DNA from: a virus
Length of the DNA: 26,895 nucleotides
IMG/VR virus record: IMGVR_UViG_3300046004_001028
Span: 1-26,895 of that record
Direction: 5' to 3' (one strand)
Position 1 is the stretch's first letter, and every line of letters begins with the position of its first letter. This document shows, one piece after another, positions 16,740 to 25,465 of the stretch. A model generated the notes under the pieces. It ran no database searches. It saw only the letters and a program-made list of their open reading frames with translations, and was not told the DNA's origin. Position numbers and translations under genes: made by a program.

Positions 16740-16984
16740 TGCGATTAATAGCCATATTAACCCTATTAGCAACTTCATTACAAGCGCAAAGATATACACC
16801 GATGTTAGGTGTCAATTATCGCTATGCACACAAGCAAAGACCTAATTTCATGCAATGGTCACGAATGGACTTTGCACCTACATTTGGTTTAGACCATAAA
16901 AAATACATGGTAACGTATTCGTTTACTACAACCAATGTGTCACATAATTTACAAATACTATATAAATTTAAAAGGATAAAATGA
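16736..16984 (+). CDS. Small exported beta-rich protein, unknown function
   Basis: 82 aa. MMRLIAILTLLATSLQA|QRY is a signal peptide with the A|Q cleavage context typical of Bacteroidota. The rest (PMLGVNYRYAHKQRPNFMQWSRMDFAPTFGLDHKKYMVTYSFTTTN... LQILYKFKRIK) alternates like amphipathic strands of an outer-membrane protein, and ends in a basic strand. ATGA coupling joins it to the upstream gene, and it overlaps the next by 4 bases. An outer-membrane lysis partner is possible but unproved. Confidence 0.6.
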   Translation: MMRLIAILTLLATSLQAQRYTPMLGVNYRYAHKQRPNFMQWSRMDFAPTFGLDHKKYMVTYSFTTTNVSHNLQILYKFKRIK

Positions 16985-17331
16985 CAGGCGAATTACTCAC
17001 GGAATTATTAAAGCAAGGCGTATTAGCTGGGTTGTTAGGCTTTATTGGATGGACATTATGGAAACGATACGACACAAGGATGAAAGAAACATCGCTTGAA
17101 TTATTGTCACTTAGAAAGCGATTTGAAGATGAACTACTTGACGAGCGAACGGAAATGAAATTGATTATCAAAGAAACGAATCAAATCAATTCTAAGATGG
17201 TCGATTCAATGTCGAAATTTAGCGAGTTCATTCAGAAGCAAAATGAGATAACAAACACCAATTTAAGACGTAACTCAACGGTAATGGAGTGCTTGACTAG
17301 TGAGATAAAAAAATATAAAAAAGTTGCATAA
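16981..17331 (+). CDS. Holin-like / membrane-anchored coiled-coil protein
   Basis: 116 aa. A single transmembrane segment near the N-terminus (GVLAGLLGFIGWTLW, about residues 13-27) is followed by a basic stop-transfer region (KRYDTRMK) and a long charged coiled coil (30-85). This layout (short periplasmic N-terminus, one membrane span, cytoplasmic coiled coil) resembles BhlA/UviB-type holin-like proteins. It starts 4 bases inside the previous gene and lies in the lysis region. An inner-membrane spanin part is an alternative. Its stop codon lies in the A-tract that serves as the U-tract of a minus-strand terminator. Confidence 0.6.
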   Translation: MTGELLTELLKQGVLAGLLGFIGWTLWKRYDTRMKETSLELLSLRKRFEDELLDERTEMKLIIKETNQINSKMVDSMSKFSEFIQKQNEITNTNLRRNSTVMECLTSEIKKYKKVA

Positions 17332-17379
17332 AAAAAGCGGGTATTTCTACCCACTCCAAAACTAAACCAAATCCATGCG
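17331..17379 (-). ncRNA. Candidate minus-strand small RNA (about 50 nt)
   Basis: The 86-base gap between two lysis genes holds a full minus-strand transcription unit: a consensus promoter (17383-17413), about 26 nt of single-stranded sequence, then a GGGTA-GAAA-TACCC hairpin (17352-17339) followed by GC and seven U (plus-strand A330-A336). Expected start is about 17379. The 3' end is antisense to the last codon and stop of 16981-17331. The RNA contains only a 4-codon ORF, so a regulatory role is more likely than coding. Confidence 0.5.
17339..17352 (-). terminator. Minus-strand intrinsic terminator
   Basis: Five-base-pair stem GGGTA/TACCC with a 4-base loop. On the minus strand it is followed after two bases by seven T. 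On the plus strand the A-tract precedes the hairpin, so it cannot act as a standard plus-strand terminator. Confidence 0.55.
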
Positions 17380-17382
17380 GTA

Positions 17383-17413
17383 CAAAGATATAAATAATTC
17401 ATCAAAAAACAAA
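17383..17413 (-). promoter_or_regulatory. Minus-strand consensus promoter (TTTG - 19 nt - TATCTTTG)
   Basis: Read on the minus strand, TTTG (plus 17413-17410) is followed by a 19-base spacer and TATCTTTG (plus 17390-17383). Both elements and the spacing match the Bacteroidota primary-sigma consensus. This is one of the three best promoters in the window and the only clear one pointing left. Confidence 0.6.
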
Positions 17414-17417
17414 TAAT

Positions 17418-17659: not shown

Positions 17660-17667
17660 TATATTTG
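17660..17667 (+). promoter_or_regulatory. -7 box (TATATTTG) of a non-coding transcript
   Basis: Exact TAnnTTTG match 6 bases after the holin stop. Expected start is about 17671. No TTG lies at 19-20 bases, so strength is uncertain. The next ORF starts over 200 bases away, beyond two terminators, so the product is probably a small RNA. Confidence 0.5.
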
Positions 17668-17670
17668 CGA

Positions 17671-17770
17671 TAACAGTACCTTTGTTGCTTACCATTAGAA
17701 CAGCTCATTGGTCTTATAAGATGCCCTCTATGCCTCTTTTCAATGCACACTTAGGGGGTTTTCTCTTTTT
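17671..17770 (+). ncRNA. Candidate small RNA in the lysis region
   Basis: About 100 nt between a -7 box and a terminator. Visible helices: TAACA/TGTTG (17671-17675 with 17683-17687, loop GTACCTT); ACCA/TGGT (17691-17694 with 17709-17712); the terminator stem. CATTGG (17706-17711) can pair with TCAATG (17740-17745, one G-U) in the terminator loop, which would be an alternative or tertiary contact. The only ORF is 27 codons and looks non-coding. It may be a lysis-timing regulator, but no family is recognised. Confidence 0.45.
17724..17770 (+). terminator. Intrinsic terminator with large loop
   Basis: CCCTCTA (17724-17730) pairs with TAGGGGG (17752-17758) with one U-G. A 3-bp TGC/GCA hairpin lies inside, and a T-rich tract (TTTTCTCTTTTTT) follows. 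It would end transcription from the virion/lysis operon as well as the small RNA. Confidence 0.6.
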
Positions 17771-17786
17771 TATCCAAACTATTCAC

Positions 17787-17794
17787 TATCTTTG
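17787..17794 (+). promoter_or_regulatory. -7 box (TATCTTTG) of a very short transcription unit
   Basis: Exact TAnnTTTG match. The start would be near 17798. A strong terminator follows within 55 bases and the next promoter box lies after that, so the transcript would be only about 50 nt. Confidence 0.45.
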
Positions 17795-17823
17795 CGACTC
17801 ATAGTTTAGTTTTATTTAGTTAG

Positions 17824-17850
17824 ACCTATCAGCAATGGTAGGTTTTTTTA
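17824..17850 (+). terminator. Intrinsic terminator
   Basis: ACCTATC (17824-17830) pairs with GGTAGGT (17837-17843, one U-G), loop AGCAAT, followed by seven T. A standard strong terminator placed directly upstream of the promoter for 17878-18144. Confidence 0.7.
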
Positions 17851-17865
17851 TTTCAAAATGTTTGT

Positions 17866-17873
17866 TATCTTTG
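17866..17873 (+). promoter_or_regulatory. -7 box (TATCTTTG) for the endolysin operon
   Basis: Exact TAnnTTTG match ending 4 bases before the ATG at 17878. The predicted start is at about 17877, giving a leaderless mRNA for a three-gene unit that ends with the M15 peptidase. Confidence 0.55.
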
Positions 17874-17877
17874 TGAA

Positions 17878-18144
17878 ATGCACCTCGAAATAAAACAAGA
17901 ACTATTTGACGAACTCCCAATTGAGGGTAAGTTTAACTTCCAGTACGAGTTTGAACGTGCTTATAACCAAGTAGTAGGGCATAACCCTATAATCACTAAA
18001 GATGTAGCAAAAGAAGCTATTAAGGCTATTCTAATCGACAAGTTGAACGCTAATGCCAATGCAGAACATAAGACCTTATTTGGTAGAATATTTGCGGTAG
18101 TTAGTAAGGTTGGGGCGGTTTTGCTTAAATTTATTAAGATATGA
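17878..18144 (+). CDS. Small helical protein upstream of the endolysin
   Basis: 88 aa, mostly helical (KQELFDELPIEGKFNFQYEFERAYNQVV... DVAKEAIKAILIDKLNANANAEHK), with a hydrophobic C-terminus (IFAVVSKVGAVLLKFIKI) that could contact the membrane. First gene of the unit from the box at 17866; its stop overlaps the next ATG (ATGA). No family recognised. The hydrophobic basic tail would allow a lysis role, but this is inference. Confidence 0.6.
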   Translation: MHLEIKQELFDELPIEGKFNFQYEFERAYNQVVGHNPIITKDVAKEAIKAILIDKLNANANAEHKTLFGRIFAVVSKVGAVLLKFIKI

Positions 18145-18293
18145 CAACTATCATACAAGGCAAACTAATTACCTACAACGGAATGCAACACCGAGTTATG
18201 CGTGTATTCGATTACAAAGGTGATTTGAAAGTTGAACTTAAGAATCTACATAATAACAACCAATTTATAATCTTTTTATCTGAATTAGAATGA
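18141..18293 (+). CDS. 50-residue small beta protein
   Basis: MTTIIQGKLITYNGMQHRV... DYKGDLKVELKNLHNNNQFIIFLSELE: alternating strands read as a small SH3-like barrel. Both ends overlap neighbours by 4 bases (ATGA), so it is probably translated together with the endolysin. Function unknown. Confidence 0.6.
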   Translation: MTTIIQGKLITYNGMQHRVMRVFDYKGDLKVELKNLHNNNQFIIFLSELE

Positions 18294-18766
18294 AGCCTAA
18301 AATATTCACACAAGCCGAAATGGTCAAATACTTTGGCGAAGCTAATGCACAAGGAACGTATTTAGTTACAATAGATTTGCCTTATACGATGTATTTTGAT
18401 AAGCAACCAGTAAAACGTATGCGATGCCATAAAAAGGTCGCTAATGCGTTTCTAAATGTGTTTAAAGACCTATTGGCTACATACGGCGAAGCTAGATTAA
18501 ATCAATTAGAAATAACTGATTTTGGCGGTTGTTTTAATTACCGATTAATGCGTGGTTCAAGAACTCAATTATCTAAGCATAGTTGGGGGACTGCTATTGA
18601 TTTAGATGCAAATAGAAACACATTAAAAGAAACAAGCGCAACGGCTCGATTCGCACGACCTGAATATAAGCCTATGATAGATATATTTGAGAAACATGGC
18701 TTTGCATCACTTGGTAGGCTTAAAAACTACGATTGGATGCACTTTGAATACGGATTACCTATATAA
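18290..18766 (+). CDS. M15-family peptidase endolysin
   Basis: 158 aa. A zinc-dependent peptidase of the M15 (VanY / D-Ala-D-Ala carboxypeptidase or L-Ala-D-Glu endopeptidase) type that cuts peptidoglycan cross-links or stems. Motifs: GGCFNYRLMRGSRTQLSKHSWGTAIDLDANRN (79-110) with zinc ligands H97 and D104, and DWMHFE (148-153) with H151 as third ligand. No signal peptide, so release by a holin is expected; two holin candidates lie upstream. Length is normal for a single-domain enzyme. A strong terminator follows. Confidence 0.88.
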   Translation: MKPKIFTQAEMVKYFGEANAQGTYLVTIDLPYTMYFDKQPVKRMRCHKKVANAFLNVFKDLLATYGEARLNQLEITDFGGCFNYRLMRGSRTQLSKHSWGTAIDLDANRNTLKETSATARFARPEYKPMIDIFEKHGFASLGRLKNYDWMHFEYGLPI

Positions 18767-24433: not shown

Positions 24434-24441
24434 TATATTTG
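24434..24441 (+). promoter_or_regulatory. -7 box (TATATTTG) of the structured RNA leader
   Basis: Exact TAnnTTTG match; start expected at about 24445. No TTG at the ideal spacing. It lies 11 bases after the zinc-finger stop and gives a 120-nt RNA ending in a strong terminator. Confidence 0.6.
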
Positions 24442-24444
24442 CAT

Positions 24445-24566
24445 TCAGTTCTTTAATTAACCGATGCTGTGAGAGGCGTCTAAACAATAACACTTTTTAA
24501 TACCCTTTGCAGGGTTGCCACCTACATACGTAGGCTCTCACTGGTAGTCCTGCAAAGGGATTTTTT
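24445..24566 (+). ncRNA. Structured leader or small RNA with kissing-loop, terminator-ended
   Basis: From the -7 box to the T-tract. Helices: P1 GATGC/GCGTC (24463-24467 with 24476-24480) with loop TGTGAGAG; an 11-bp perfect stem CCCTTTGCAGG/CCTGCAAAGGG (24503-24513, 24549-24559) extended by TTGCCA/TGGTAG; inside it CCTAC-ATAC-GTAGG (24521-24534). The unpaired CTCTCAC (24535-24541) is perfectly complementary to GTGAGAG in the P1 loop (24469-24475). It ends in six T, 5 bases before the ATG of the sigma4/alphaCTD gene. It is either a free small RNA or an attenuator; I do not recognise a known class. Confidence 0.6.
24503..24566 (+). terminator. 11-bp intrinsic terminator before the sigma4/alphaCTD gene
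   Basis: Perfect 11-bp stem with a structured internal region, followed by A and six T. Unless read through or opened, it would stop transcription 5 bases before the ATG at 24572. Confidence 0.75.
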
Positions 24567-25369: not shown

Positions 25370-25377
25370 TAACTTTG
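25370..25377 (+). promoter_or_regulatory. -7 box (TAACTTTG) of the second structured RNA
   Basis: Exact TAnnTTTG match, 10 bases after the sigma4/alphaCTD stop. The predicted start (about 25381) coincides with the first bases of the terminator stem, so the RNA's 5' end is locked in the helix. Confidence 0.55.
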
Positions 25378-25378
25378 C

Positions 25379-25438
25379 AACAATAAAGGTTGTGTAGGCA
25401 TACACGTAAAAGTTAGCGTTCTTCCCTTTGTTGTTTTT
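25379..25438 (+). terminator. Intrinsic terminator before the primase/helicase gene
   Basis: The 11-bp outer stem of the RNA above and its five-T tract. The stem is A/U-rich on one side, so it is weaker than the one at 24503-24566. Confidence 0.55.
25380..25438 (+). ncRNA. Second terminator-ended structured RNA/leader
   Basis: About 59 nt. An 11-bp stem AACAATAAAGG/CCTTTGTTGTT (25379-25389, 25425-25435, one U-G) joins the start to the end, with a GTGTA-GGCA-TACAC hairpin inside (25392-25405) and five T at 25434-25438. TTAGCGTT in the loop (25413-25420) is perfectly complementary to AACGCTAA at 25443-25450, downstream of the T-tract; only a read-through RNA could form that pseudoknot or alternative hairpin. 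It ends 27 bases before the primase gene. Confidence 0.55.
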
Positions 25439-25465
25439 AATCAACGCTAAATAAAAACACATTAT

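Follow-up and report, generated by a model that had tools for sequence, protein, structure and literature searches.

The DNA analysed here, called the window throughout, is a virus record of 26,895 bases whose recognisable genes all read rightward. Its source is a Bacteroidota virus. The head, tail, recombination and SSB genes match PHROGs families, the endolysin is about 61% identical to those of Flavobacterium phages, and TAnnTTTG is the expected host promoter of this virus. Our subject is an 86-nt gap (17332-17417) between two rightward genes. The minus strand of this gap carries TTTG-N19-TATCTTTG, a predicted start, a hairpin and seven U. The features of the locus are listed below.

16981..17331, plus strand: upstream gene, 116 aa, with an N-terminal hydrophobic stretch followed by a charged helix; no family match
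17330..17336, minus strand: U7 tract of the leftward terminator, overlapping the upstream stop codon (17329-17331) at its final two bases
17330..17378, minus strand: predicted 49-nt small RNA, GCAUGGAUUUGGUUUAGUUUUGGAGUGGGUAGAAAUACCCGCUUUUUUU; its start is taken from the position of the -7 box and its end from the U tract
17334..17357, minus strand: intrinsic terminator hairpin, 10 pairs, GAAA loop
17383..17390, minus strand: -7 element TATCTTTG, matching the Bacteroidota sigma-A consensus TAnnTTTG
17410..17413, minus strand: -33 element TTTG, located 5-8 nt before the downstream gene's start codon
17418..17654, plus strand: downstream gene, 78 aa, with two hydrophobic stretches; no family match
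18290-18766, plus strand: endolysin of the M15 type, near the pair of 116-aa and 78-aa genes

The preliminary description had called the upstream gene holin-like. This label is a weak one, drawn from one or two faint hydrophobic stretches, marginal by hydropathy, and from the nearness of the M15-type endolysin. Family searches gave no holin match for either the 116-aa or the 78-aa protein. Homologues of the two proteins were not found by peptide-pattern scans, tblastn or a whole-record search covering viral contigs, phages and genomes.

The leftward signal set first described for the gap could be confirmed in all its parts: TTTG-N19-TATCTTTG, 26 nt from the TATCTTTG box (17390-17383) to the hairpin on the minus strand, the hairpin itself and seven U. 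TAnnTTTG is the promoter consensus of Bacteroidota sigma-A (PMC7366714, PMC9723704), and the -7 box of this form, together with the -33 TTTG at the usual spacing, has the sequence of a sigma-A (sigma-ABfr) promoter. In flavobacterial transcriptomics the TAnnTTTG box occupies -12 to -5 (PMC9723704), and we therefore predict a start at about 17378 and an RNA of about 49 nt. Approximately 21 bases at the 5' end of this RNA are predicted to be unpaired. The hairpin reads GGAGUGGGUA-GAAA-UACCCGCUUU on the minus strand (17357-17334), with a GNRA-type loop. The GGGTA/TACCC stem noted earlier is present, although the full stem is longer, with 10 pairs of which 3 are G-U. This GC-bearing stem-loop followed by a U tract is an intrinsic (Rho-independent) terminator by its sequence. 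The folding energy is -13.5 kcal/mol on the minus strand compared with -7.5 on the plus strand, where the three G-U pairs become A-C mismatches and the U tract behind the hairpin is absent. The weaker fold and the absent U tract on the plus strand suggest that the element is built for a leftward RNA. The unit also contains a CATGGATTTGGTTTAG stretch, loosely similar to the TTTTTTCATA motif that often precedes terminators in the related phages (upstream TTCATA, 24 observed versus 3.2 expected). An Rfam search of the whole window gave zero matches above the gathering score and nothing for the leftward RNA.

Other candidate interpretations of these elements were tried as well. A plus-strand terminator was rejected on the absent U tract and the weaker fold, and programmed frameshifting at the A7 plus hairpin was rejected because the A tract comes after the in-frame stop. 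A scan for E. coli-type sigma-70 promoters was uninformative, with fewer promoter-like sites than in shuffles.

We quantified how often such a unit arises in shuffled and in real sequence. A terminator scan found one minus-strand terminator in the whole window, and a promoter together with a terminator arose in none of 300 dinucleotide-shuffled versions of the window. Among 20,000 shuffles of the gap, 397 (2%) contained the promoter, 12 the terminator and 1 both. As a real-sequence control, we surveyed 355 distinct same-strand (tandem) gaps, 38.9 kb, from the window and related viral contigs (given below by their L numbers), with the full promoter defined as TTTG-N18-20-TAnnTTTG. The survey returned 54 sense matches and two antisense matches, both of the latter inside the 17332-17417 gap. 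The spacing of the sense TTTG-TAnnTTTG pairs peaked at N19 (37 of 70), the same as in the leftward promoter. For terminators, the tandem gaps contained 65 in sense and 5 in antisense orientation. The sole gap with an antisense full promoter is also among the few with an antisense terminator, which would be a coincidence of about 1 in 70 if the two were independent.

One explanation is that the unit is a by-product or a matter of chance: an A-rich gap with a CAAA start-region motif would imitate a promoter, and the hairpin would be a feature of the plus-strand message. The sequence is low in GC, TAnnTTTG is common inside genes, and CAAA lies at most 14 nt before ATG in 70 of the 355 gaps. Because of this frequency, the leftward -33 box may also serve the 78-aa gene as part of its translation start region. 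Nevertheless, the shuffles and the gap survey speak against a chance origin, as do the weaker plus-strand hairpin and the U tract absent there, and we consider this explanation very unlikely. The preliminary description took the unit for the only leftward signal set in the window. As a promoter-terminator pair it is, no second one having been found in the window, but leftward promoter-like matches also occur inside genes. Since the unit is rare in both the shuffles and the gap survey, and its hairpin folds stably on the minus strand alone, it is likely to be a real 49-nt leftward unit, and judging from the sequence we have considerable confidence that a leftward RNA exists.

The antisense terminators bear on another explanation, an antisense insulator, in which the functional part is the leftward terminator alone behind the stop codon. 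It would block stray leftward transcription into the upstream gene, and the promoter would be weak or accidental. All five antisense terminators in tandem gaps (L011, L016, L024, L059 and the window) lie 3-9 nt after the upstream stop. Those of L016, L024 and L059, at 5-9 nt after stop codons, have no suitable promoter: L016 and L024 are without a -7 box, and the only box of L059 nearly touches the hairpin. These three cases keep the insulator alive as an explanation. On the other hand, the sole antisense full promoter of the 355 gaps falls in one of these few, in the correct order and with the commonest spacing, and the promoter alone appears in 2% of the gap shuffles. Overall, we regard the insulator as rather unlikely.

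Comparison with the relatives gave information on the history of the locus. Homologues of the upstream 147-aa gene are present in L003/L108, L084/L107, L109 and L110. L109 and L110 also contain a homologue (75% identity) of the 82-aa gene that adjoins the 116-aa gene. The next genes in the syntenic relatives encode 103, 98 and 77 aa and are closely packed, and no antisense unit was found in these relatives. Judging from this comparison, the 116-aa/78-aa module and the gap within it have the appearance of an exchanged segment. A DNA scan for the hairpin core found nothing, and BLAST of the gap against phages returned short, chance-level pieces only. A looser pattern, GTTTAG followed by the GTAGAAATA loop, matched similarly built terminators in 19 viral contigs. 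Several of these are in sense orientation, and the result shows a common terminator style and not homology. On the sense strand, several relatives (L002/L003, L025, L041-L047, L062 and L076) have promoter-terminator units of about 48-66 nt in the surroundings of the endolysin gene. On the minus strand, L011 (4045-4130) and L017 (3516-3600) carry near-identical units directly after the endolysin stop codon. The endolysin genes of these two contigs are 86.9% identical in DNA; L007-L009 lack the cassette, yet their endolysins are 91-92% identical to that of L011. The unit of L011 and L017 thus seems to behave like an exchangeable cassette. Their shared stretch reaches into the following terminator, and the exchanged piece may therefore be larger than the cassette. 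A conserved CTCGTTTTTTTCATAATTAAAATTTAG-like stretch also lies directly behind the endolysin stop, before terminators, in L006-L035.

These cassettes speak for a trans-acting role. In this explanation, the unit is a moron-like RNA gene whose roughly 21 unpaired 5' bases target other messages or proteins, of the phage or of the host, and its location in the operon is incidental. The cassettes of L011 and L017 are near-identical despite the lower identity of the endolysins, and relatives 92% identical to L011 are without one, so such cassettes appear to be gained or exchanged. The neighbourhood in the window also contains further candidate RNA units on the plus strand. However, target prediction within the phage was weak, the best start-region duplex reaching -21.6 kcal/mol with 3% of shuffles as good, and no homologous RNA copy was found elsewhere, the BLAST matches of the gap being at chance level. 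A trans-acting cassette is unlikely in our view. We are similarly doubtful of a broader generalisation, in which Bacteroidota phages would carry exchangeable minus-strand small-RNA cassettes of 80-100 bp behind lysis-region stop codons (as in the window, L011 and L017), tuning the lysis operon in cis or serving as RNA effectors in trans.

Several plus-strand candidates were observed in the window. An abiF-like RNA (RF03085) lies at 17724-17759, within a unit of about 17660-17772, in the lysis region 350 bases downstream of the leftward unit. It scored 32.9 bits against a gathering score of 37, that is, below the curated cut-off, with an E-value of 0.0067 over 9 kb and all families and 4.7e-6 for RF03085 alone on this record. 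TAnnTTTG boxes precede it and a T-rich stretch follows. An Abi_2 gene was not found in the record. In Clostridioides difficile, the AbiF toxin is neutralised by abiF RNA, and the system there is associated with lysis modules of phages (PMC12373285); cyanophage S-CREM1 is also reported to carry an abiF RNA (PMC9964418). An orphan abiF-like RNA would be a candidate RNA decoy against AbiF defence. A rightward unit at 17787-17852 has TATCTTTG, about 50 nt and an intrinsic terminator, with the 88-aa, 50-aa and endolysin genes downstream of it. A comparably placed unit occurs in L002 and L003. The unit of the window resembles the lambda pR'-tR' layout or a small RNA. At 17866-17878 (plus strand), TATCTTTG directly precedes ATG 17878 of the 88-aa gene, which suggests that the message of this gene is leaderless or nearly so. 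Further to the right, positions 24434-24566 (plus strand) contain TATATTTG and then a strongly folded non-coding stretch (-41.6 kcal/mol) ending in CCTGCAAAGGGATTTTTT, a candidate structured RNA with no Rfam match at gathering level. Positions 25370-25440 (plus strand) contain TAACTTTG and then a short RNA-like stretch; its 5' and 3' ends pair with each other ahead of a T run (CAACAATAAAGG...CCCTTTGTTGTTTTT).

Taken as a whole, the leftward unit is probably a phage intercistronic antisense RNA, that is, a known kind of RNA in a new phage group; in the literature searched, we found none described in this group. The best reading is an intercistronic antisense RNA similar to lambda OOP, which we put forward tentatively. 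Host sigma-A RNA polymerase would start leftward near 17378 and stop at the intrinsic terminator at 17330, and the product of about 49 nt would be complementary, with no mismatch, to the part of the rightward message that lies between the two genes. The RNA would pair with this intercistronic part, the duplex would be cleaved by an RNase III type of activity, and cleavage would uncouple or destabilise the messages on either side, which encode the small membrane-protein pair. Additional interference could come from the leftward polymerase and from the -33 box, which overlaps the downstream start region. The elements and how rare they are, the preference of the hairpin for the minus strand and the similar cassettes in relatives are direct observations; from them we infer transcription, pairing, cleavage and an effect on lysis.

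The OOP-like reading is favoured by the commonest promoter spacing, by the presence of an antisense full promoter in 1 of 355 gaps compared with 54 sense matches, and by the recurrence of promoter-terminator units of about 48-66 nt in relatives. Against it, the same gap was seen in no relative, the syntenic relatives having other genes and no unit; CAAA precedes ATG in 70 of the 355 gaps; and the predicted RNA leaves 40 nt between its end and the downstream start codon, which it would therefore not mask. The preliminary description had the 3' end antisense to the end of the holin-like gene and proposed a control of lysis timing. The first claim is hardly true, as the overlap covers merely 17330-17331, the last two bases of the TAA. 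Control of lysis timing by the leftward RNA is possible, but it is a further step, because the flanking proteins are only marginally hydrophobic and have no holin match. A paper combining antisense RNA, holin, phage and lysis timing was not found in the literature searched.

Most of what is known about antisense control in phages comes from lambda and from P22, where the sar RNA pairs with the translation start of ant. If our reading is true, such control would extend to Bacteroidota, with their different promoter code and no Shine-Dalgarno sequences. The reading also offers a precise prediction, an RNA of 49 nt running from 17378 to 17330. Lambda OOP is read leftward, from its own promoter to its own terminator (pO-oop-tO), and is complementary to a polycistronic message; it overlaps cII by 52 bases, and the RNase III cleavage sites lie outside cII (PMC5869508). 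The sar RNA of the P22 arc/ant region is likewise a small antisense RNA against a phage operon (PMC2629481). Similar to these systems, the present unit has its own promoter and terminator opposite an operon, and like OOP it would give a short leftward RNA at the junction of two rightward genes. Unlike them, it does not overlap the coding sequence or the start region of a controlled gene: two stop-codon bases are covered, compared with 52 bases of cII, and the predicted RNA does not come closer than 40 nt to the downstream start codon, whereas sar pairs with a translation start. Neither OOP-type coding overlap nor sar-type start blocking is therefore directly applicable. Since the RNase III sites of OOP lie outside cII, coding overlap is not essential (PMC5869508), and together with the full complementarity here, this makes an OOP-like action on an intercistronic target plausible. 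The unit also differs from OOP in having no sequence relation to it, a Bacteroidota sigma-A promoter and other neighbour genes, and it is known as a sequence prediction. In Bacteroides, DonS-type cis-antisense RNAs of 78-128 nt lie divergent to susC genes, and the canonical promoter accompanies about half of the cis-antisense RNAs in B. thetaiotaomicron (PMC7366714). The predicted RNA would resemble the DonS type as a Bacteroidota antisense RNA, and would differ from it in being of phage and not bacterial origin and in its predicted length of 49 nt.
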